Part shown: positions 18,599 through 33,374 of the stretch, in pieces
Numbering within the stretch: position 1 is the stretch's first letter
Layout of the letters: every line of letters starts with the position of its first letter
Assembly: GCA_029941865.1 (NCBI GenBank)
Contig: JAPYTO010000026.1
Location: 1 to 35,537 of the forward strand
DNA length: 35,537 nucleotides
Reading direction: 5' to 3'
DNA from: Fuerstiella sp.
GTDB taxonomy: Bacteria > Planctomycetota > Planctomycetia > Planctomycetales > Planctomycetaceae
Notes under the pieces: model-generated
The model's database searches: none
What the model was told of the DNA's origin: nothing
Seen by the model: the letters and a program-made list of their open reading frames with translations, nothing else
Program-made: the position numbers and the translations under genes

Positions 18599-20077
18599 AT
18601 GGCCATGACGGCTTCCCTCACACCCGCTCACGAAGTCGCAGCGGATTGGCTGGTTGTACTCGTTTCAGACACACCGGAGTTTCAGGGCAACACACGTCAG
18701 GTGGACGATGCGCTTGGCGGAATGATCCGGACCGCGATGGAACGAGGCGATTTTGAGGCAAAGAGGCAGGAAGTGCTTCCGCTCTATCAGACGGCAGGAG
18801 TGGCGGCGACCAATGTCGTTGTTGTTGGAATGGGACCGACAGCGGCCAATGATGTCCGTAATCTGCGGCAGAGCATGTTGACCGGTCTGCGGGTCTGCTG
18901 CATGAATAGTGATCAGTCGGTGGCAATGATTGTGGACGACACAGTCAGTGAAAGGCTTTCGATCTCACAGCTGGCCGAGACGTTCAGCGACAGCGTGGTT
19001 TCCGGGCCAGTCGATTCCGACGTGTACAAGGCAGAAGTCAAACGGCATCCCTTCGTCGAGGCTACCTTGTGTCTGACGGACATCGCTGACATCGACCACG
19101 CACTCAATGCGGGCGCAATCGTCGGCAGCGCGTGCAATGTTGTCAAGGACCTTGTCAACAGGTCAGCCAATGACATCTTTCCGCAGACCTTTGCCGCGTG
19201 CGCCGCTGAGATCGCGGAAGACTGCGATCTGGAGTGTGTCATTCTGGATGAAACGCACCTGGCGGCGGAGAAAATGGGCGCGCTGCTGGCGGTGGCTCGA
19301 GGCAGCGAGAAGCCGCCGCGAATCGTGAAGCTGACCTACCGAGGCGCTGACAGCGACGCTGAGACAGTGGCGCTTGTCGGTAAAGGCGTTACGTTCGACA
19401 GCGGTGGCTACTCGATCAAGCCAAGTGACGGCATGATCTCGATGAAGGCCGACATGGCCGGCGCGGCGACGGCGCTGGGAGTGATCAGCGCGGTCGCAAC
19501 TCTGAAGCTGCCGGTGAATCTTTCTGTGTACCTGGGCCTCGTGGAGAACATGATCAGTGGCAGCGCCTATCGTCTGGGTGATGTTGTGACCGCTCGAAAC
19601 GGCACCACCATCGAAATTCATAACACGGACGCCGAGGGGCGGCTGGTGCTGGCGGACGTGCTGAGTTACGCGATTGACGACGGTGCCGACGCGGTCATTG
19701 ATCTGGCGACGCTGACCGGAGCCTGTGTTGTTGCCCTGGGAGAGGAAATCACAGGAATATTCGCCAACAGTGCTGAACTGAGTGATCGCATTTCCGGGGC
19801 TGCGACTTCGACAGGTGAGTTCTTCTGGCCGATGCCGATGCACGAGCATTTTGAGCCACTTTTGAAGAGTGACGTCGCGGACTGTAAAAACGTAGGTCCC
19901 CGATGGGGCGGAGCCGTCACAGCCGCAAAGTTCCTGGAAAAGTTTGTCGGCGATACTCCGTGGGTTCACCTGGATATTGCCGGACCATCGTGGGCCGATT
20001 CGGCGACGGCGTGGCAGGACGCCGGGGGCACCGCCAGCTGCGTGCGAACACTGGTCGAAGTTTTTCGCCGTGAATAG
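18599..20077 (+). CDS. pepA: Leucyl aminopeptidase (M17 family)
   Basis: This is a cytosolic two-metal aminopeptidase, about 492 residues from the ATG at 18599 (GGAAAGAAG upstream); the ATG at 18605 is equally plausible and a TTG at 18545 is not needed. The C-terminal catalytic domain is complete: GKGVTFDSGGYSIKPSDGM (about residues 261-279, metal-binding Lys and Asp), MKADMAGAATALG, and NTDAEGRLVLADVLSYA (342-358, with the ligands Asp344 and Glu346 and catalytic Arg348), then DLATLTGACVVALG. The N-terminal domain is divergent, as is usual in M17. In other bacteria such hexamers trim peptides and some bind DNA. The stop at 20075-20077 is followed two bases later by copy C of the dispersed repeat. 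Confidence 0.95.
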   Translation: MAMTASLTPAHEVAADWLVVLVSDTPEFQGNTRQVDDALGGMIRTAMERGDFEAKRQEVLPLYQTAGVAATNVVVVGMGPTAANDVRNLRQSMLTGLRVCCMNSDQSVAMIVDDTVSERLSISQLAETFSDSVVSGPVDSDVYKAEVKRHPFVEATLCLTDIADIDHALNAGAIVGSACNVVKDLVNRSANDIFPQTFAACAAEIAEDCDLECVILDETHLAAEKMGALLAVARGSEKPPRIVKLTYRGADSDAETVALVGKGVTFDSGGYSIKPSDGMISMKADMAGAATALGVISAVATLKLPVNLSVYLGLVENMISGSAYRLGDVVTARNGTTIEIHNTDAEGRLVLADVLSYAIDDGADAVIDLATLTGACVVALGEEITGIFANSAELSDRISGAATSTGEFFWPMPMHEHFEPLLKSDVADCKNVGPRWGGAVTAAKFLEKFVGDTPWVHLDIAGPSWADSATAWQDAGGTASCVRTLVEVFRRE

Positions 20078-20079
20078 CG

Positions 20080-20174
20080 ACTACAGCGAATTTCGCTGAC
20101 TCATGGCCGCGGTTGACGTGTTTCAATAACAAAACGGCCGCCCCCACGAGCCAGAACCGGTTCCGTCAATTTTT
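20080..20174 (-). repeat. Dispersed ~95-base repeat, copy C (inverted)
   Basis: Read on the minus strand, this is the cleanest copy: AAAAATTGACGGAACCGGTT, CTGGCTCGTGGGGG, TTATTGAAACACGTCAACCG, CGGCCATGAGTCAGCGAAAT, TCGCTGTAGT. Arms at 20096-20106 (CTGACTCATGG) and 20144-20154 (CCACGAGCCAG) are complementary if G-U pairs are allowed. It starts two bases after the pepA stop codon. The rest of the 20175-20473 gap shows no gene. Confidence 0.87.
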
Positions 20175-20473
20175 GGCTCCATTGGTGTTTTCGCTCACAT
20201 TCTGAGCAGGGTCGGACATGCCCGCGTGGCAACGTTTTATGGTCGGGAACGGTACAATGCCGGACCTGCCAGGGAATTTGCTGGTCTGGTATCGTTGTTG
20301 GCAGCTGCATCAACGGGTAAACTGTTGTGTGCTGGTGTGACGACGGGTACAGATACCGGGCTCGCTCAGCATTGCCGCATTTCCGGTCTCTTCAACCATG
20401 CCCCGTCACCTTTCTGCTCACACAGTCCCACCGCAACGCCATCCACACTCGTCTTGAGTGACGCTCGTGAAAA

Positions 20474-21685
20474 ATGATTCCCGTTACCGAAACCACCTTC
20501 AATCCGAGTCTGCAATTGGGTTCAGCCACAGCGTTTGACTATCAGCCACGGACCCGCGTGGTTTTCGGAGTCGGCAGTTTCGCCAGACTCGGTGAGATTG
20601 CCAGCGAGTTTGGTAACGGACCCGTGCTGCTGGTGACTGATCCGGGACTGAAGCAGGCGGGCCACGAGGAGTCAGCGATCGCGTCTCTGGAGTCCCAGGG
20701 GCTGAAGGTTGCCGTTTTTGATGACGTCGCCACGAATCCAACAACAGACGACGTGGACCGTTGTGTCGAGTTTGCCAGGGGGAAGAGCATTCAATTGATC
20801 GTCGGACTCGGCGGCGGCAGCAGTATGGATTGTGCGAAGGGCGCCAATTTTCTGCTGACGAACGGCGGTCGCATGCAGGACTACAAGGGCATCGGCAAGG
20901 CGACGCATGAGATGTTGCCCATGATTGCCGTCCCCACAACATCCGGCACGGGCAGCGAAGCTCAGTCCTTTGCTGTGATTGCGGACGCCAAAACGCACAT
21001 GAAGATGCCCTGTGGGGATCCCAAGGCGGCCTGTCGCGTGGCCATCCTCGATCCGGAACTGACCGTCACGATGCCTCGGGTTGTGGCGGCAGCTACTGGC
21101 ATCGACGCCATGACGCATGCCATCGAAAGCTATGTGACGAAGAAGCGTAATCCGATGTCTCAGATGTTTGCCCGTCAGGCGTGGGCACTGCTGTCGAAAT
21201 CGTTCGCTGTGGTCATGAAAGCTCCCGATGATCTTGAGGCACGCGGCAACATGCAGCTGGGGGCTCACCTGGCCGGAGCAGCCATTGAAACGAGCATGCT
21301 GGGCGCAGCACACGCGACGGCCAATCCATTGTCGGCACACTTCGACATGGTGCATGGGATTGCGGTTGGTGTCATGTTGCCACATGTGATCCGGTGGAAC
21401 ATTCCGGAGGTTGGTCATCTTTATCGTGACCTTGCCATATCTGCGGGTTGGGCTGGCCGCGGTGATACAGCTGAGCAGGCTGCTGAAACGCTGGCGAAGG
21501 GTTTTGCAGAACTGGTTGCGGTCGCCTCGATGCCTCAAACGCTGACGGATGCTCTTGAACTACAGCTGAATGACAAAATGCGGGATACTCTGGTCGAAGA
21601 AGCGACTCAACAATGGACGGGAACGTTCAACCCGCGAACAATGGACGCGGATGGGTTTCGGCAACTTTACAGAAACGCGACGTGA
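20474..21685 (+). CDS. Iron-containing (group III) alcohol dehydrogenase
   Basis: The 403-residue protein belongs to the Fe-ADH family: NAD(P)-dependent oxidoreductases acting on alcohols or aldehydes in the cytoplasm. The nucleotide-binding block GLGGGSSMDCAKGANFLL lies at about residues 111-128, followed by the classical PTTSGTGSEAQSFAVI. The metal site is complete: Asp and His in GIDAMTHAIESYVT, and two His in AHATANPLSAHFDMVHGIAV. The exact substrate is unknown. It begins a run of five same-strand genes to 26305, and the next start is 46 bases after its stop. The ATG at 20474 has a weak ribosome binding site. It follows pepA after a 396-base gap that contains repeat copy C. Confidence 0.94.
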   Translation: MIPVTETTFNPSLQLGSATAFDYQPRTRVVFGVGSFARLGEIASEFGNGPVLLVTDPGLKQAGHEESAIASLESQGLKVAVFDDVATNPTTDDVDRCVEFARGKSIQLIVGLGGGSSMDCAKGANFLLTNGGRMQDYKGIGKATHEMLPMIAVPTTSGTGSEAQSFAVIADAKTHMKMPCGDPKAACRVAILDPELTVTMPRVVAAATGIDAMTHAIESYVTKKRNPMSQMFARQAWALLSKSFAVVMKAPDDLEARGNMQLGAHLAGAAIETSMLGAAHATANPLSAHFDMVHGIAVGVMLPHVIRWNIPEVGHLYRDLAISAGWAGRGDTAEQAAETLAKGFAELVAVASMPQTLTDALELQLNDKMRDTLVEEATQQWTGTFNPRTMDADGFRQLYRNAT

Positions 21686-21731
21686 TGGCAGATCAGTAGC
21701 GTTGCACGCTGGCTGTATCAGGAGTTCAATT

Positions 21732-22916
21732 ATGCGACCACGATTTACTCGACGCGAAGCACTTTCCGCCCTTTCCGGTGGTGCGGCCGCATTTTTCGTT
21801 GGTCAACACCTGGCCAGTGCTTTGCCGCCGACGTCTGCGTTGACAGGCCCCACGGACTCCAGCTGGGCATCGTTTCGCAACGGGTCGGCTCAACGAGGAA
21901 TCTCGAAAACCCAGCTGGCTGAGAAACCGGAACTCAGATGGGAGGTCGTCTCGCGTGATGGCTGGCTGGCGACCTGCGCGATTGTCGGCAATCACGTCTA
22001 CGCGCCTGCGTTGCAGGGATATCTGCACTGCTTCGACAAAGACACCGGCGCAGAACTGTGGCGGTACCGCACGATTGACAGTGCCGACGAAAAGAAGTTT
22101 GCCCCCGGCTTTAAGGCGGCTCCTCTGGTGACCGAAGAAGCTGTTTATGTCGGCGACGAGGACGGAATTCTGCACGCCGTAGACCGTGTCTCAGGCAAGC
22201 TGTTGTGGAAGTACAGCACCGATGCTGAAATCGCCGGAGGCGTTGCCGTATATCAGGACAGGTTGCTGCTGGCGTCACACGATGCGTTCCTGTACTGCCT
22301 GTCAAAGCAAGGCAAGGAACAGTGGAAGTTTGAAACGAACGACCGTATCAACTGTTCACCGGGGATCGCCGATCATTTTACCTTCGTGTCCGGCTGTGAT
22401 GAACACCTGCGAGTCATCGACCTGAATAGCGGAGACGAAGTTCGCGATGTCGCCATGGAATCCTATCTGATCGCATCGCCGGCCATTGTTGACGATATGT
22501 TGTATGTGGGTTCGCAGGCGGGGATCGTTGCTGGCGTTAACTGGAAGACGGGAGAGATCGAGTGGCGTTACGAGGGCGAACGAAGCATGCCATACCATGC
22601 GTCCGCGTCTGTGACGGACGATCTGGTGCTGGTCGGCAGCCACGACAGTAAATTTTATGCCATCGATCGACATACGGGAAAAGGACGCTGGACCTTCTCG
22701 ACCAAAGCCCGAATTGAATGTTCTTCCGCCGTCGTGGATAGCCGGGTCTTCTTCGGTTCTCGCGATGGCAATATTTATGGGCTTTCCATCGCAGAAGGCC
22801 GTGAAGTCTGGAAGTTTAATGCGGGCAAGGCGATCACGGCTGGTATTGCAATCGGGGAAGAATGTATGGTTGTTGGAGAAGACGACCACAACGGTAAACT
22901 ACGGTGTTTTGCATAG
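21732..22916 (+). CDS. PQQ-binding-like beta-propeller repeat protein, Tat-exported
   Basis: The start at 21732 is chosen because GGAG lies 8 bases upstream and the protein then begins with a twin-arginine signal (TRREALSALSGGAAAFFVG). It is about 394 residues. From about residue 60 onward it consists of repeated PQQ-type blades with the pattern (V/I)YVG..DG.(L/I)(H/Y)A(V/I)D..(S/T)GK..W: for example AVYVGDEDGILHAVDRVSGK, LVLVGSHDSKFYAIDRHTGK and RVFFGSRDGNIYGLSIAEGR. Such propellers resemble quinoprotein dehydrogenases and BamB, but the catalytic residues of true PQQ dehydrogenases are not apparent, so a binding or scaffold role is as likely. The next gene starts 69 bases downstream. Confidence 0.9.
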   Translation: MRPRFTRREALSALSGGAAAFFVGQHLASALPPTSALTGPTDSSWASFRNGSAQRGISKTQLAEKPELRWEVVSRDGWLATCAIVGNHVYAPALQGYLHCFDKDTGAELWRYRTIDSADEKKFAPGFKAAPLVTEEAVYVGDEDGILHAVDRVSGKLLWKYSTDAEIAGGVAVYQDRLLLASHDAFLYCLSKQGKEQWKFETNDRINCSPGIADHFTFVSGCDEHLRVIDLNSGDEVRDVAMESYLIASPAIVDDMLYVGSQAGIVAGVNWKTGEIEWRYEGERSMPYHASASVTDDLVLVGSHDSKFYAIDRHTGKGRWTFSTKARIECSSAVVDSRVFFGSRDGNIYGLSIAEGREVWKFNAGKAITAGIAIGEECMVVGEDDHNGKLRCFA

Positions 22917-22985
22917 ACGAGACTTATTGAATTCTTCCGTCGTCACGCCGATGCACGGCGGTGCGCAACAACATAATCGAAAATT

Positions 22986-24305
22986 ATGAAAACAACTGAC
23001 GTCTCAACCGCAACCGAAGTGGGCAGCTACTTTATTTCCAACTATCCACCGTTTTCGCTGTGGACCGAAGAAAATACGCCGGAGATTCTGGAAGCCTTTG
23101 ACCGGCCCGTCGAGCAAACGAAGGACACGACGGCGGGGTTGTACATTCACATTCCATTCTGTCGGAAACGCTGTAAGTTCTGTTACTTCCGCGTCTACAC
23201 GAACCAGAACGCGGCAGCGATCGAAGAATATGTTCAGGCCTTGATACGTGAGATTGAACTAATCAGTCGCAAGCCGGGAGTGCAGGGACGTGGACTGGAG
23301 TTCGTCTACTTTGGCGGTGGCACGCCATCGTATCTAAGCTCAAAACAACTGCGTTCGCTGCGAGAACGTATGAGTCAGCATGTCACGTGGGAGAAGGCAA
23401 AGGAAGTGACCTTCGAGTGCGAACCGGGCACGCTGAGTCTGGACAAACTTAAGACGCTGAAGGAGATTGGAATTACACGATTGTCGCTGGGCGTGGAAAA
23501 CTTTGATGATCGCATTCTGGAAGAAAACGGCCGCGCACATTTATCGCCGGAAGTGATGAAGGCATACGACTGGATTCAGGAGGTCGGATTTCCTCAGGTC
23601 AACATTGACCTGATCGCCGGCATGGTGGGCGAGACCGACGATAACTGGCAGCGGTGCATCGACAAGGCCATCGCGATGCAGCCGGACAATATTACGGTCT
23701 ACCAGATGGAGCTGCCGTTCAACACCGTGTATTCGAAGGAGATGAAGGAACAAGGCGTTGAATCACCTGTCGCAGACTGGCCCACCAAACGTCGCTGGGT
23801 CAGCGAAGCGATGGACCGGATGATGGCGGCGGGCTACAGCATTTCCAGCGGTAACGAGCTGGTCCGGAATCCCGAGACAGATCACTTTGTCTACCGAGAC
23901 AACGTGTGGCGGGGTTGTGACCTGATTGCTACCGGGGTTTCTTCATTCGGGCACTTCCAGGGTGTTCATTATCAGAATCTGGATCGCATTGAAGGCTATA
24001 TTGAAACCGTGAATCAGGGCGAACTGCCGGTAAATCGAGCGCTGCGGCCGACTGAACATCAGATGTTGATTCGCGAAGTCGTCCTGCAGATGAAAGAAGG
24101 ACACATCAGCGGCGACACGTTTCGCAGCAAGTTCGGAGTCGACATTTTTGCTGAGTTTCCGGAAGCCTTTGCAAATCAGCAGGCCGCTGGATATCTGACC
24201 GTGGATGGCGACAATGTGAAACTGACCCGGAAGGGGCTGTTGCAGGTCGACAGTCTTCTGCCCGAATATTTTGAAAAAGAGCACCGCGCTGTTCGCTATA
24301 CCTAA
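22986..24305 (+). CDS. HemN/HemW-like radical SAM protein
   Basis: The 439-residue protein has the 4Fe-4S radical SAM motif C-x3-C-x2-C (Cys59, Cys63, Cys66 in [20 protein letters not shown]), then [12 protein letters not shown] and [28 protein letters not shown] and [18 protein letters not shown] HemN-type C-terminal domain ([19 protein letters not shown] to about residue 430) is also present. It is longer than typical HemW, with about 45 extra residues at the front ([20 protein letters not shown]). Family members include coproporphyrinogen III oxidase, haem chaperone HemW, and various methyl- and cyclopropane-forming enzymes. The family name does not fix the reaction. The DUF98 gene follows after 29 bases, so it probably works with that protein and the halogenase-like enzyme rather than in haem synthesis. 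Confidence 0.88.
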
Positions 24306-24334
24306 ACTCAGATGATCGATGGAGCCTCCTGCCT

Positions 24335-24877
24335 GTGAACCCGTTAATTGAACTGGATCAGCTTTGTGCGCTGTTTCCCGAGCCCGTAGGACAGCCGCTG
24401 TACCTGTCGGCCGAACATATTGCCCGTGAGGCCACGCCGGAACCGTACCATCGGATGCTGGTGCATGAACATCACATGACCATTGAGATGGAGAGTTATC
24501 ACGATTGCTCGGTCGACGTGGAAGTCGTGGATTCTCGCTTTGAAGACGATTTGTACTGCCGCAAAATACTGTTGAAAAAACAGGGGACCAGCGACGTTGT
24601 GCAGTTTGGAATTGTTCGATTCAATTTCGACTTCGTCACCGACGCGGTCCGCCGTGAGATTGAATCGGAATCGATTCCTTTGGGTCGCGTTTTGATTCAG
24701 CATAATATCCTCAGGCATATTGATCTGGGTGCGATTGTCAAATTTGAAGCAGGGCCGGCGTTGAGTCGGTATCTGCCGCTGAACGAGGCACAGAGTACGT
24801 TTGGACGCATGGCGACTATCTTCTGCAATGGATCCCCCGCCGTGGATTTATTGGAGATTTCAGCACCCTTGCCTTGA
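24335..24877 (+). CDS. DUF98 / chorismate pyruvate-lyase-like protein
   Basis: This 180-residue protein starts at a GTG with GGAG 11 bases upstream. Blocks typical of DUF98 (PF01947), a relative of UbiC, are present: MLVHEHHMT (residues 41-49), [25 protein letters not shown] (76-80), [39 protein letters not shown] (about 109-127). UbiC-type enzymes remove pyruvate from chorismate to give 4-hydroxybenzoate. Whether this member does that, or a related reaction, cannot be decided from sequence. It lies between the radical SAM gene (29 bases) and the halogenase-like gene (117 bases), which suggests it provides an aromatic precursor to them. No signal peptide is seen. Confidence 0.78.
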
Positions 24878-24994
24878 ATCAAGTAATCGCCAGACTGATG
24901 ACGTCGATGCAGTAGATGCTGGCCACATCTTCCGGCGGCGAGGTTTCTTAGCATTGTTGCCACCCTTTGAATCATCCGTGTAAGCTCGTTCCGT

Positions 24995-26305
24995 ATGATC
25001 CAGCCCAATCCTGAATCACCCATCAACTACCTGCCGCCGCTTCAGGATCAGTACGACGTGATCGTCGTCGGTGGTGGTCCGGCCGGATCGACGACCGCAG
25101 CGCTGGTGGCAGAATACGGGCACAGCGTGCTTTTGCTGGAACGAGCTCAATTGCCGCGATTTCACGTCGGTGAGTCCCTGATTCCGGAGACCTACTGGCC
25201 GCTCAAGCGACTTGGGCTTATTGAGCGATTGAAGCAGTCAGCATTTCCACGCAAGTACAGTGTTCAGTTCGTGAGCGACGGTGTGAAGGAGTCTGCTCCG
25301 TTTTACTTTGAACTTTATAACCTGCACGAAAGCAGCGTGACGTGGCAGGTCGATCGCGGCGAATTCGATCAAATGCTGATGGACCGGGCCAAAGAACTAG
25401 GCACCGTCGCTCACACTTCCGCCCATGTGACAGACGTTATCTATGAGGATGATCAGGCTGTGGGGGTCAAGTGTCGGCTGTTGAACGAGGACGGCGGACG
25501 CACAGAACGCGAGATTCGTTGCAAAATCGTGGTGGATGCGACAGGGCAATCCGCATTTATCAGCAGTCGTCGGGGACAGCGAGACGCAGATCCGATGCTG
25601 AAAAAAGGAACCATCTGGACTTACTGGAAGGGCGCACTCCGCGATTCCGGCAAGGACGAAGGCGCTACGCTCATCATGCAGACGCCCGGTAAAAAATCGT
25701 GGTTCTGGTACATCCCACTGCAGGATGACGTCGTCAGCATCGGCTGCACCGGCAGCATGAATTACATGTTTGGTAAAGAAGCCGGGAGCGTGGAATCCGT
25801 CTACGATCGGGAACTGTCGCGATGTCCTGCCATGCAGAAGCGGCTCGCAAATGCCACTCGGTACACAGACTTCTTCACAACGAAAGACTTCTCGTACTAT
25901 TCACGCGAGGGTGCGGGGCACGGCTGGTTATTAGTCGGAGACGCATTCGGATTCATTGACCCGGTATATTCGAGCGGAGTCTTCCTTGCATTGAAGGGCG
26001 GCGAGTTTGCGGCAGACGCAATTCATGATGCTCTGGAACGTGGCGACCTGACGGGGCCACGACTGGGCCAATGGCAGCCGTTGTACAAACAGGGCATCGA
26101 AAACTTCCGCAAACTTGTTTATGCCTTCTATGCCGAGGACTTCAGCTTTGGAATGTTTCTGAAGGAGCATCCTGAGTACAAGTCGAACATGGTCGACATT
26201 CTTGTGGGCGACGTGTTCAAGCCTTGTGTTGGCGACATCTTTGATGCCATGGGAGTCGTTGAGCCTGCCATGGACACGCCGCTCAAACGTACGGCACTGG
26301 CCTGA
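24995..26305 (+). CDS. Flavin-dependent halogenase-like oxidoreductase
   Basis: The 436-residue protein has the FAD-binding GGGPAG (residues 26-31), RFHVGESLIPE (56-66), Lys87 in AFPRKYSVQF, WFWYIP (236-241, the W-x-W-x-I-P fingerprint of flavin-dependent halogenases) and GDAFGFIDPVYSSGVFLALK near the C-terminus. Lys87 sits where the catalytic lysine of PltA/CndH-type phenolic and pyrrole halogenases is found. These features support a halogenating flavoenzyme, but some non-halogenating monooxygenases and reductases share the fold, so activity is not proven. It probably needs a separate flavin reductase, which is not visible here. It ends the five-gene run; a hairpin terminator follows at 26391. 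Confidence 0.85.
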   Translation: MIQPNPESPINYLPPLQDQYDVIVVGGGPAGSTTAALVAEYGHSVLLLERAQLPRFHVGESLIPETYWPLKRLGLIERLKQSAFPRKYSVQFVSDGVKESAPFYFELYNLHESSVTWQVDRGEFDQMLMDRAKELGTVAHTSAHVTDVIYEDDQAVGVKCRLLNEDGGRTEREIRCKIVVDATGQSAFISSRRGQRDADPMLKKGTIWTYWKGALRDSGKDEGATLIMQTPGKKSWFWYIPLQDDVVSIGCTGSMNYMFGKEAGSVESVYDRELSRCPAMQKRLANATRYTDFFTTKDFSYYSREGAGHGWLLVGDAFGFIDPVYSSGVFLALKGGEFAADAIHDALERGDLTGPRLGQWQPLYKQGIENFRKLVYAFYAEDFSFGMFLKEHPEYKSNMVDILVGDVFKPCVGDIFDAMGVVEPAMDTPLKRTALA

Positions 26306-26390
26306 TCCGCACGATTTCGTCTCTACCTGTGTGCCGGCTGCCGGCGGGCCACACGAGGCTGTGATTCAAATCAAGTCAGCGCAAGAAAAG

Positions 26391-26417
26391 AACGGTTCGA
26401 ACAAAGCTCGAACCGTT
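26391..26417. terminator. Bidirectional hairpin terminator
   Basis: A perfect 10-base stem, AACGGTTCGA (26391-26400) and TCGAACCGTT (26408-26417), surrounds a 7-base loop. On the minus strand it is followed by CTTTTCTTG, giving a Rho-independent terminator for the DUF309 gene ending at 26446. On the plus strand the tail is only CCTGTCGTC, so termination after the halogenase-like gene would be weaker. Confidence 0.75.
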
Positions 26418-26445
26418 CCTGTCGTCTGAGTTGTGCAACTGCCGA

Positions 26446-27021
26446 TTATGGATCTGCCGGGGCCGCCATTTCCGGTTTCAGGAGAAACGGGAAGACTCGA
26501 ACGGCTTCACCTGGAGGGTGTTCTTTTTTGTAGGCCAATTGAGCAGCTCGGTCGGCAGCAAACTGCAATCGTGTGAAGTCCAGACCGCAGTAGCTGTCGG
26601 TGTCGGCTTCGGCGGCCACATCGGCAAACATTTCGCCGGAAGACGCAGCGTGGCGACGAACGCCGTGGATGCTTCGTTCGCGGACCTTCACGCCGGCAGC
26701 TGAGAGTTTGATGAGACCCTTCAGAAAACGGCCGGACGTCGTGTCTGCACCTGAGACGCGCCACAGACGCTCCCATTCTTCGTGAGCTTCCCAGTAGTAG
26801 CCCATGTTGAAGAAGTCGATAGCAAGAAGGTAGTTGCGGTTATCTTTCCATGATTCGGGACTTAGGGCTTTGGGGCCCTGTCCCGGAGCATGCTTGCGGC
26901 CATAGCTGTGACCTTTCGGGTCACGAATGGGGTGTGGCAGACCGGACGCCGGATAAAATGCGTATTCGGGAACAGGGATGGACGGAAGTAGACGTGGACG
27001 CTCCGCATCGGCCGTGATCAT
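26446..27021 (-). CDS. DUF309 domain protein
   Basis: The start at 27021 (TTTTGGAG about 10 bases upstream) gives about 191 residues; an upstream extension to 27087 lacks support. The DUF309 core is clear: [20 protein letters not shown] then WR, followed by [20 protein letters not shown] and SIHGVRRHA, a helical fold built around the F-x-x-G-x-[YF]-x-E-A-H-E motif. The first 60 residues ([20 protein letters not shown], then [11 protein letters not shown]) are an extension rich in Pro and Gly. The biochemical role of DUF309 is unknown. The gene is transcribed alone toward the terminator at 26391. Confidence 0.88.
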
Positions 27022-27694
27022 TGGCTGTAGACTCCAAAAGTTTCGCTTAAGAAAATGGGCGCTGTTGCCACCCTTCCCACCAACCACTTGATTAACGAAC
27101 TCCGTTCAAGACACAACCTGTCAACCAGCACCGTGTGTCTGACTGGTCAAAGCAGGCTGGGTTTGATGTCTTACGCACCTGAGTACGTGGAGCGCTGAGA
27201 AGTTAGGAGGCTCGGAAAGGTAGGTGAGTTGGTTGGGTGAGTTGGCGGGGCAGAACCCAGTGATTTGTTCCCCATGACTTTACACGCTTTTTGGCGAACT
27301 GCGAGCACTTCTTTGTCGAAATCCACAGATTCCGACCGTTCTCGAACGCAGTCGGATAGGTCCACGAATGCCGAATTCCTGATCCAGCTTTCGTAACCTG
27401 AAAACACCGGGGAACATATGTCGACCCGCGTCTCTGATCAGGTCACGCGGACGGTTTTCGATATCGGGTCACGCGATATCGCCGCCCCTGGCTAAGGATT
27501 CGTTTTGGCGCGTTTGTGGCGTGGGCAGTCCATAAGGGGGGGGCAGTTCTGGAAAAGCTCTGCTCTTTGTAAGCTCCATGACCGCGGGAGCGTCGAATCA
27601 CGGAGACTTCGGGGCTATGGTTCCGGATATGCCGCTGCTGTTGAACGGCGGTTGCCAGCGAAGTCCGTCACCAAAAAGGAAAAGATCGGAAAAC
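27022..27694. other. 673-base gap before the ArsM-like gene
   Basis: No gene is supported. The stretch contains a direct near-repeat GTGAGTTGG (two copies near 27225 and 27238) and a small hairpin at 27459-27481. Open frames (27171-27407 minus, 27505-27711 plus) have no recognisable domain. It should hold divergent promoters for DUF309 and the methyltransferase. Confidence 0.45.
27459..27481. promoter_or_regulatory. Palindromic pair CGATATCG, possible operator or hairpin
   Basis: CGATATCG occurs at 27459-27466 and again at 27474-27481, separated by 7 bases. Each is its own reverse complement, so the pair can form one hairpin or two binding half-sites. GGTCACGCG also repeats (27441-27449 and 27467-27475). 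It is 214 bases upstream of the ArsM-like gene. Regulation by a repressor is only a possibility. Confidence 0.3.
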
Positions 27695-28867
27695 ATGTCG
27701 ACAACGAGTGAACACCTGAATGTGGATGGAGCCGTTCGAGACCGGTACAGCAACGCTGCTCAGGCCGCAGAAGCCTCTCTGTGTTGTCCAGTGTCCTATG
27801 ACGCGCAGTATCTGGAGGTTATCCCTGCGGAAATCATCGAACGCGACTACGGCTGTGGTGACCCTTCGAAATACCTGCAGCCTGGCGACCAGGTACTGGA
27901 TCTCGGTTCCGGTGGGGGCAAGATATGCTACATCGCGTCTCAGGTCGTCGGCCCGGATGGCTATGTCGTGGGTGTGGACATCAACGATGATATGTTGACG
28001 CTGGCCAGAAAGTACCAGGACGAAGTCGCCGATCAGATCGGTTACCGCAACACGGATTTTCGCAAAGGCAGAATCCAGGATCTGCAGCTGAACATGGAAT
28101 TATTCGAACAGCATCTGCGTGAGCACCCGGCGGATTCGGCAAAGAGCTGGCTGGCGGCCGACGAGGCCGCAGCGGAGCTCAGCAAGAGTGCGCCGCTGGT
28201 AGAAAGCGACAGCATGGACGCGGTGGTGTCCAACTGCGTGCTTAATCTGGTGCGGAACGGAGACCGTAAGCAGTTGTTTGCCGAGGTGTATCGTGTGTTG
28301 AAACGCGGTGGGCGAGCGATCATCAGCGACATTGTCAGCGACGAAGACGTGCCGAAAGATCTGCAGAATAACCCCGAACTGTGGAGCGGCTGCATCAGCG
28401 GCGCGTTTCGCGAAGATCGGTTTCTGGAAGCGTTTGAGGAAGCCGGGTTCTATGGCCTGGAAATCGTCAACCGACAGGAAGAGGCATGGGCGGTGGTCGA
28501 CGGAATTGAGTTTCGCAGCCTGACGGTGCGGGCCTGGAAGGGAAAGGATGGTCCGTGTCAGGACCGCCACCAGGCCGTGATTTACAACGGACCGTGGAAG
28601 ACCGTCGTTGATGATGACGGGCACAAGTTACACCGTGGCAAGCGAATGGCTGTGTGTGAGAAGACGTTCAATATCTACACTTCCGAGCCGTATGGCAGCC
28701 ATGTCACTCCCATCGCTCCGGCGCAGGAGGTGCCGTTGGATCAGGCCGCTGACTTCGACTGTCACCGGGCAGCGATTCGAAGTCCACAGGAAACGAAACG
28801 CGGCAAGGCCACTCTGAACGTTCTGCCTGGCGATGACTGCTGCGGCGATGGAGGCAGTTGCTGCTGA
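27695..28867 (+). CDS. arsM: Arsenite S-adenosylmethionine methyltransferase-like protein
   Basis: From the ATG at 27695 (GATCGGAAAAC upstream) the protein has about 390 residues. The SAM-binding motif is VLDLGSGGGK (residues 67-76), followed by VVGVDINDDMLTLARKYQ. Three cysteines fall where ArsM binds trivalent arsenic: CCPVSYD (Cys30/31), SNCVLNL (Cys181) and WSGCISGAF (Cys233); YGCG (52-55) is another family mark. About 40 residues are inserted between RIQDL and the SNC motif (residues 131-172). A C-terminal domain of about 100 residues (PCQDRHQAVIYNGPWKTVVD, CEKTF) ends in DDCCGDGGSCC. The expected role is arsenite methylation for detoxification or arsenolipid/arsenosugar synthesis. No arsR, arsB or arsenosugar genes are nearby, so the substrate is inferred from family membership. 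Confidence 0.82.
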   Translation: MSTTSEHLNVDGAVRDRYSNAAQAAEASLCCPVSYDAQYLEVIPAEIIERDYGCGDPSKYLQPGDQVLDLGSGGGKICYIASQVVGPDGYVVGVDINDDMLTLARKYQDEVADQIGYRNTDFRKGRIQDLQLNMELFEQHLREHPADSAKSWLAADEAAAELSKSAPLVESDSMDAVVSNCVLNLVRNGDRKQLFAEVYRVLKRGGRAIISDIVSDEDVPKDLQNNPELWSGCISGAFREDRFLEAFEEAGFYGLEIVNRQEEAWAVVDGIEFRSLTVRAWKGKDGPCQDRHQAVIYNGPWKTVVDDDGHKLHRGKRMAVCEKTFNIYTSEPYGSHVTPIAPAQEVPLDQAADFDCHRAAIRSPQETKRGKATLNVLPGDDCCGDGGSCC

Positions 28868-32349: not shown

Positions 32350-32432
32350 GTTGCGGCGATTGGCTGTGGTGAAAGAGATAAATGAGTAGAGTGTAAAACA
32401 AGATGTCAGTTCTGAAACAAGGAGTAATGACT

Positions 32433-33374
32433 GTGAGTGTCGCGAGTAAAACGAGACGCGTCTACCTGTCCGGAGATTTGGTACCGGAGGCGGAAGCGAA
32501 AATCTCCATCTTCGACAGCGCTGTCATGCTGGGTGACTGCGTGACCGAATCGACTCGAACGTTCGCCCACCAGCCGTTCCGACTGCAGGACCACATCGAC
32601 CGGCTATACCGTTCGCTGAAAGTCACCCGCATTGCTGTCGGCCATTCACCGGAAGAACTGACTCGGATTACGTTGGACGTTTTGGAGGCGAATTTACACG
32701 CTCTGGAATCCCACGACGATTGTTGGATCGTGCACAATATTTCTCGAGGTTTGCTGAAACACGGGCCGTCGGCAGCGCAGCAAAACCCTGCCACAGTGAT
32801 GATCTTCACAGACCATCTGAATCTTCGAGGCTGGGCCGGATTTTACACGGAAGGCTGCCACGCCGTCACGTCCATGAGCCGGGCCATTCCCGCGCAGTCG
32901 TTGGATGCTCGTATCAAAAACCGCAGTCGTCTGGCGTACACGATGGCGGATGCCGAAGCGCGGTTGGTGGATCCTGACGCTCAGTGCGTTATTCTGGACG
33001 TCCATGGCAACGTATCAGAGAACAAAGGCGGTAATATCTGTGTCGTAACGGACGGAGAACTGAGAACACCCACGACCGAGAACAGTCTTGCCGGAATAAG
33101 CAGGCAAACCGTCCTTGAACTCGCTGCTGACCTCGGAATACCGGTTCGCGAACGTCGCCTGCAAATGTATGACCTCTATACTGCGGACGAATTGTTCTTC
33201 ACCAGCACTCCGTACTGCATCATGCCGGCGACGCAGTTTAACGGTCTGCCGGTCGCAGACGGCCACGTGGGGCCGGTCACAAAGAAGCTTTTGGAAGCTT
33301 GGAGTGAACGTGTGGGCGTTGACATCATTGCTCAGGCTCAACGACAACTTGACGAAGATCAGGGCGTTTTATGA
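32433..33374 (+). CDS. Class IV aminotransferase (BCAT / D-amino acid transaminase fold)
   Basis: PLP enzyme of about 313 residues. The frame opens with ATG at 32403, but AAGGAG (32419-32424) lies 8 bases before the GTG at 32433 and only 2 before the ATG at 32427. I therefore prefer the GTG; both other starts remain possible. Motifs include VYLSGDLVPEAEAKISIFDS, GDCVTESTRTF, the probable PLP lysine in DARIKNRSRLAY, and VSENKGGNICVVTDGEL (the E-x-x-x-x-N strand of class IV enzymes). The amino donor and product are not determinable. The stop codon TGA at 33372-33374 is contributed by repeat copy D, which begins at 33371; the true end of the ancestral gene may have been different. Confidence 0.88.
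   Translation: MSVASKTRRVYLSGDLVPEAEAKISIFDSAVMLGDCVTESTRTFAHQPFRLQDHIDRLYRSLKVTRIAVGHSPEELTRITLDVLEANLHALESHDDCWIVHNISRGLLKHGPSAAQQNPATVMIFTDHLNLRGWAGFYTEGCHAVTSMSRAIPAQSLDARIKNRSRLAYTMADAEARLVDPDAQCVILDVHGNVSENKGGNICVVTDGELRTPTTENSLAGISRQTVLELAADLGIPVRERRLQMYDLYTADELFFTSTPYCIMPATQFNGLPVADGHVGPVTKKLLEAWSERVGVDIIAQAQRQLDEDQGVL

Follow-up and report, generated by a model that had tools for sequence, protein, structure and literature searches.

Results

Organisation of the locus

The DNA that we analysed is a stretch of 35,537 nucleotides (the window; contig JAPYTO010000026.1, positions 1 to 35,537, forward strand) from a draft genome of the planctomycete Fuerstiella sp. (GCA_029941865.1; 8.04 Mb in 612 contigs), and it carries three adjacent genes, here called A, B and C. 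We tentatively read them as encoding enzymes of one planctomycete pathway whose product would be a phenolic ester or lipid that derives from 4-hydroxybenzoate and is possibly chlorinated. Gene A (22986..24305) encodes a HemN-like radical S-adenosylmethionine (SAM) enzyme of 439 residues, gene B (24335..24877, with a GTG start) a DUF98/chorismate-lyase-like protein of 180 residues, and gene C (24995..26305) a flavin-dependent halogenase-like protein of 436 residues. The open reading frames (ORFs) are co-directional on the + strand, like all features of the window described below, and are separated by 29 bases (A–B) and 117 bases (B–C); an earlier note on this DNA had read them correctly. Judged from their relatives, which align over most of their length at identities of 49–82% (A, n=27), 21–82% (B, n=31) and 35–86% (C, n=29), they are genuine genes and not chance frames. 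The closest named loci for B are in two Fuerstiella metagenome-assembled genomes (L039, 92% identity; L040, 88%).

The earlier note took the trio as the unit and overlooked two genes directly upstream. An iron-containing alcohol dehydrogenase gene (Fe-ADH; 20474..21685; PF00465, 169 bits) is the first gene of the conserved unit, and it is followed by a gene for a PQQ/BamB-type β-propeller protein (21732..22916; PF13570, 186.6 bits; PF13360, 129 bits). The propeller ORF opens at 21570 and its start is likely at 21732, which would give a protein with a twin-arginine-like N-terminus that is likely exported. The Fe-ADH gene lies upstream of A, and the propeller gene between the two, in many relatives. 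An isolated three-gene cluster was therefore rejected, since Fe-ADH and the propeller belong to the unit and the trio is part of a larger pathway. A scan of positions 19900–27200 for promoters and terminators gave nothing that clearly exceeded shuffled sequences.

The three encoded proteins

Gene A matches PF04055 (89.2 bits) and HemN_C (PF06969, 25.2 bits with a cut-off of 24). By profile, HemN (1olt, 2.4e-56) is followed as second solved relative by the radical SAM methyltransferase NocN (9p2u, 4e-36). The CxxxCxxC iron–sulphur motif (residues 59–66, 23160..23183), read from the sequence and its alignment, and a GGGTP motif are conserved in 28/28 members, which together bears out the original call of a HemN-like radical SAM enzyme. 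A is not HemN proper: the TIGR00538 equivalog model for coproporphyrinogen oxidase scores 180 bits against a cut-off of 325, and for the 25 of 34 NCBIfam models listed A never reaches the cut-off (best HutW/ChuW, 216 of 400 bits). The C10P cyclopropanase is likewise described as HemN-like (PMC6050322). A thus resembles HemN-like methyltransferases and cyclopropanases in having NocN among its closest solved relatives, and differs from the NocN/C10P class in missing these listed cut-offs. Plasmid-borne copies of A were also considered and discounted, as all 407 matching records fall below 60% identity, with the eight listed at 26–31%. Five genomes (G056, G064, G158, G188 and G320) hold a second, more distant A-like copy (487–523 bits), which adjoins a C-like copy in G064, G158 and G188; this suggests a paralogous radical SAM/flavoprotein pair.

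As a single sequence, B had no match at E≤0.1 in Pfam or NCBIfam. A 32-member profile gave the DUF98 structure AF1396 (2nwi) as its top match (7.7e-6), and hhalign against Escherichia coli UbiC returned E 1.1e-4, though its probability was a modest 56%, with the MT, RxILL, PLGR and GR motifs aligned and a Glu (E174) beyond the aligned end. The AlphaFold model of B has a predicted local distance difference test score (pLDDT) of 92.2. In a fold search with this model 2nwi was again the best PDB match (E 2e-7, TMt 0.75), ranks 4–14 went to GntR effector domains, whose fold is the same, and UbiC (1fw9) stood at rank 15 (E 3.1e-4). The earlier assignment of B as DUF98 chorismate-lyase-like is thus upheld by profile and by model, and B is predicted to have a chorismate-lyase fold. 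Eight residues are invariant in 32/32 members (M48, T49, R76, P115, G117, G157, R158 and E174). We take the Met of MT, the Arg of RxILL, PLG and the C-terminal Glu to be the product-binding set; UbiC Arg91 seemingly lacks a counterpart in B. Most simply, B would be a producer of 4-hydroxybenzoate from chorismate. A 4.4 kb contig (L054) of a metagenome-assembled genome titled Robiginitomaculum also ends in a 99-base match to B; it is perhaps a misbinned planctomycete contig.

Gene C matches PF04820 with 95.5 bits (cut-off 21). Its GxGxxG motif for binding flavin adenine dinucleotide (FAD) is complete in 30/30 members (G26, G28, G31). The solved structures matched by the 30-member profile are, in order, 8zop (317.6 bits, 9.5e-94), PltA (297 bits, 2e-87), CndH (288 bits, 1e-84), Mpy16, ChlB4, 3nix and CmlS. 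A fold search also returned 8zop, which is FasV, at 32% identity; it started from a poor model and is supporting only. Lys87 (codon 25253..25255), which we take to be the catalytic Lys of halogenases (Lys79 type), is Lys in 29/30 members and is aligned with Lys in all five halogenase alignments listed. The WxWxIP motif (here WFWYIP, residues 236–241, 25700..25717) is equally well kept, with W236 in 29/30 and W238, I240 and P241 in 30/30 members. The halogenase fingerprint and Lys87 on which the earlier note had relied are therefore present as described. A further motif that we take to be FxxPxxSxG (residues 320–328, 25952..25978) has P323 and G328 in 30/30 and F320 and S326 in 29/30 members. 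At what is presumably the position of the tryptophan-halogenase Glu (PLESTG motif), all 30 members have Phe or Tyr. Tryptophan halogenase proper was therefore rejected, and C would belong at most to a phenol- or pyrrole-type halogenase subclass. A halogenating function of C is what we infer from these features.

The window's genome also encodes a C paralogue (G000:C29, L151:8902-13715) of 423 residues, 44% identical to a C reference (PF04820, 97.7 bits). It is preceded by a gene of the TIGR04053 family of SPASM radical SAM proteins (451 bits, over the cut-off) and followed by a desaturase-like gene of the DesA family, and upstream there is an Rrf2 regulator. The surroundings of the C paralogues in L153, L154 and L156 yielded no desaturase match. 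At five other loci (L119, L124, L125, L126 and L128), where C lies apart from A and B, a MarR-like regulator adjoins C (two of the five were scanned, and both are MarR). MarR proteins often sense phenols, which fits the phenolic product proposed below.

A, B and C co-occur in planctomycete genomes

Each gene was searched for separately in one set of 392 planctomycete genomes. A was found in 88 genomes (E≤1e-80), B in 66 and C in 88 (E≤1e-115). The cut-off for C was chosen after the scores were known, and 120 genomes contain a match at 1e-70; the lowest-scoring C members counted are in G186, G329 and G383. A and C occur together in 85 genomes. Every genome with B also has C (66/66), and 65/66 have A, the exception being G281. 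Fisher values for this co-occurrence ignore shared ancestry and overstate its significance. The window's family has all three genes in 28/28 genomes sampled, families f2 and f4 have them in 9/9, and the three genomes of f3 and f5 lack every one of them. Because carriers and non-carriers coexist within families (in f12, G186 has A and C and G007 neither; in f24, G179 has both and G019 neither), the set seems to have been gained or lost together.

Other genes follow the same distribution. Fe-ADH was found in 30/30 tested genomes with the A and C pair versus 0/30 without it, aldehyde dehydrogenase in 23/23 tested A-bearing versus 0/40 A-lacking genomes, and an AMP-ligase in 23/23 versus 2/40, both of the latter weak matches (30–32% identity). 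A PaaK-type ligase was present in 23/23 A-bearing genomes, a sample of positives only. The A-bearing genomes tested were 23 (aldehyde dehydrogenase, AMP-ligase, PaaK) or 30 (Fe-ADH, polyprenyl synthase) of the 88, and the A-lacking sets of 40 and 30 were non-random, with G167, G357 and G377 among them.

Scattered orthologues, which the earlier note named as evidence against its reading, are in part what we observe. The set does stay in the same genomes, but all three genes fit into 10 kb in just 35 of the 66 B-bearing genomes. By pairs, A and B are near each other in 49, B and C in 36, and A and C in 37 of these genomes. For G110 this count rests on the second of its C matches, the one adjacent to A and B, and because of draft assemblies the clustered counts are lower bounds; scattering is nonetheless also seen in one-contig genomes (G291, G152, G105 and G024). 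In many genomes the genes are scattered and the set is nonetheless complete. The window's genome itself holds elsewhere operon genes that are absent around A, B and C, namely aldehyde dehydrogenase (G000:C210:8702-10111), AMP-ligase (G000:C99:469-1533) and PaaK-type ligase (G000:C511:2055-3317).

Gene fusions connect members of the set directly. Fe-ADH and A form a single open frame in L136 (821 residues) and L130 (1221 residues), and B and C do so in L103 (695 residues). Each of these is an open frame in one genome, for which an assembly error is conceivable. The A proteins of L149 and L158 are likewise extended at the N-terminus, by a long stretch in which no ADH match was detected. The near-perfect co-occurrence and the fusions give the joint pathway proposed in the earlier note stronger support than adjacency alone.

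A long operon in distant families

In distant families A, B and C are embedded in a long operon comprising genes for a sodium:solute symporter, AMP-ligase, aldehyde dehydrogenase, Fe-ADH, propeller, A, B and C, followed by a glycosyltransferase, a YbgC-type thioesterase, a small protein, a PaaK-type ligase, an ABC ATPase and an FtsX-type permease. Gene order varies between loci. Across the 18 loci L092–L109 each operon gene was labelled in 8 to 17 loci; these are lower bounds, as the gene maps come from simple ORF picking and an unlabelled gene is not proof of absence. The small protein has no Pfam match and appears membrane-like by eye. The aldehyde dehydrogenase and the short ligase were considered as LuxC and LuxE and rejected as such, PF00171 and PF00501 being their only matches. 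The PaaK-type ligase scores 188–210 bits with two PaaK models, 134 with BagE/FevW and 122 with the flexirubin protein FlxY, all far under cut-off. BagE/FevW has an aryl-ester-forming role.

In several loci of f2 and f4, A adjoins GcvH-like and ferredoxin-like genes. C is near GcvH-like and ferredoxin-like genes in L143 and L144, and additionally near a SPASM-type radical SAM gene and a polyprenyl synthase gene in L143 and near a cyclase-like gene in L144. These contexts link C to the module beside A and B in f2 and f4.

A proposed pathway and its alternatives

Sequence comparison establishes the families of A, B and C, their co-occurrence (including that with Fe-ADH, aldehyde dehydrogenase and AMP-ligase), the shared operon and the fusions. 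What the pathway makes is a less certain matter, and the 4-hydroxybenzoate-derived phenolic ester or lipid, possibly chlorinated, that we favour is put forward as a working proposal with somewhat less than even chances. B would remove pyruvate from chorismate to give 4-hydroxybenzoate. Since planctomycetes use menaquinone, they would have no need of this compound for ubiquinone. Using FADH2, halide and O2, C would form hypohalite, held as a haloamine on Lys87, and would halogenate the phenol or an alkene in an attached chain; the B–C fusion suggests that C acts on the product of B or a derivative. The AMP-ligase, aldehyde dehydrogenase and Fe-ADH would convert an acid to an aldehyde and then to an alcohol, and A may alkylate or otherwise remodel this alcohol branch, as the ADH–A fusion suggests that its substrate is the alcohol or aldehyde formed there. 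The PaaK-type ligase would activate an aromatic or fatty acid for ester formation, and decoration and export of the product would fall to the glycosyltransferase and the transporters. Taken together, these parts point most simply to a phenolic ester or lipid.

Several observations count against this proposal. Twenty genomes have A and C with B undetected, which would mean either that 4-hydroxybenzoate is not the sole input or that B is there in diverged form or has a substitute. No two of A, B and C are near each other in 14/66 genomes. The presence of the pathway in 28/28 genomes of the window's family is unusual for a specialised halometabolite, and a core function fits this universality at least as well. 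A scan of 8 window proteins and 10 operon proteins, which did not take in every operon ORF, found no carrier-protein or flavin-reductase family. Products of another class are also conceivable, given the likely exported propeller and the terpene-like module that accompanies B in some lineages. For C itself, matches extend to non-halogenating flavoenzymes (NCBIfam geranylgeranyl-reductase subfamily, 133 bits; QhpG, 123; LodB, 94; compared with 183 for CmlS, whose cut-off is 900), and the profile scores 260 bits with 3nix, a Cytophaga protein listed only as a flavoprotein/dehydrogenase. The member in L097 has Ser for Lys87, and the structure model of C is poor (mean pLDDT 58.7, residues 85–115 <50), too poor for inspection of a halide tunnel.

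These points bear first on whether C halogenates at all. The same pathway could operate with C hydroxylating or oxidising the 4-hydroxybenzoate-derived phenol, as QhpG and other flavin monooxygenases do, to give a non-halogenated catechol- or quinone-type product. The scores against QhpG, LodB and GoxB, the member without Lys and the 28/28 presence, which points to a core compound more than to an ornamental one, speak for such a hydroxylase. We nevertheless regard it as rather unlikely, as the closest named solved relatives of C are the halogenases FasV, PltA and CndH, while a geranylgeranyl-reductase-type protein and a Bacillus niacini monooxygenase reach 101 and 90 bits and the higher-scoring 3nix has no assigned function; Lys87, WxWxIP and FxxPxxSxG are moreover kept in 29–30 of 30 members.

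A second alternative concerns the product class. The pathway may build a lipid or terpenoid on whose chain C and A act, with B supplying a minor aromatic head group or using another substrate. Here B directly follows squalene-hopene-cyclase-like and DUF116-polyprenyl synthase genes in nine fetched loci (L049, L075, L076, L078, L079, L080, L082, L084 and L086), parts of this module lie near C in L143 and L144, and polyprenyl synthase was found in 28/30 A-bearing versus 3/30 A-lacking genomes tested; the C paralogue of the window's genome adjoins a desaturase gene, as described above. None of the long-operon loci L092–L109 is among the holders of the cyclase or polyprenyl synthase families, however, and the synthase also occurs in A-lacking genomes, such as both f3 genomes; we consider this version, too, to be on the doubtful side.

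It is improbable that the aromatic ring is instead made into a small redox cofactor for Fe-ADH and the exported propeller. The frequent position of Fe-ADH and the PQQ-type propeller next to A, the fusion of Fe-ADH with A and the spread of the set across the phylum would suit a cofactor, but the glycosyltransferase, symporter and ABC genes of the operon suggest an exported product. Finally, chance neighbourhood of three independent genes without a common function, for which one might cite the full trio being unclustered in 31/66 B-bearing genomes, is hardly credible, being largely contradicted, even allowing for shared ancestry, by the joint occurrence of A and C in 85 of the 88 carriers of each, by the nesting of B within C (66/66), by the fusions and by the operon shared among distant families.

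Relation to known pathways

The pairing of a chorismate lyase with a flavin halogenase, which the earlier note had invoked, is a known theme in brominated-phenol biosynthesis (PMC10579414). As in that Bmp pathway, which includes a P450, chorismate-lyase-type and flavin halogenase-type enzymes are encoded together. The planctomycete unit differs in that B is of the DUF98 type and not the UbiC type, C resembles the FasV/PltA/CndH class, and a HemN-like radical SAM enzyme, Fe-ADH and ligase/reductase genes are added. No P450 turned up in a scan of 8 window proteins in and around the unit, a search that did not extend to the remainder of the window or to the genome. The note's observation is accordingly confirmed and its interpretation partly supported.

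A different parallel is offered by mycobacterial phenolic glycolipids, made by a polyketide route, whose chorismate lyase Rv2949c is of the DUF98 type. There a DUF98-type enzyme supplies 4-hydroxybenzoate for a phenolic lipid, as is proposed here for B. No polyketide synthase family was detected in the 8 proteins of the window and the 10 of the operon that were scanned.

Among planctomycetes, one source (PMC12078418) reports 3,5-dibromo-p-anisic acid from a single strain, 10988, which, like the product proposed here, is of a halogenated 4-hydroxybenzoate type. It also reports alichondrichlorin, an ester that joins 4-hydroxybenzoate and a chlorinated fatty acid, from Alienimonas chondri, whose genes are described there as unknown and which shares with the window a source in the Planctomycetaceae. 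Alichondrichlorin is a lead, not a link, for the gene set. In the open papers searched we found no description of this planctomycete gene set. A broader version of our proposal, in which a phylum-wide planctomycete pathway makes a chlorinated 4-hydroxybenzoate-derived lipid or ester, alichondrichlorin-like compounds are its products and organohalogens are a general trait, seems decidedly doubtful to us.

If the proposed pathway is real, about one fifth of the sampled planctomycete genomes (88/392 by A), among them 28/28 from the window's family, encode an aromatic pathway that has gone unrecognised and in which a halogenase-type enzyme is joined by a radical SAM step. Because its genes are scattered in many genomes, mining for gene clusters would be apt to overlook it. 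The set would also provide candidates for planctomycete halogenated phenolics, whose genetics that source gives as unknown (PMC12078418).

Neighbouring genes

Leucyl aminopeptidase, DUF309 and ArsM-like genes were considered as members of the unit and rejected, as in the loci searched they lie beside it only in the close relatives L039 and L040. The ArsM-like gene (27578-28867) encodes an arsenite methyltransferase-like protein with a Cys-rich C-terminus, which scores 343 bits with the arsinothricin ArsM model, below the cut-off of 500. Farther downstream, positions 32403-33374 encode a class IV aminotransferase (PF01063, 134.8 bits).

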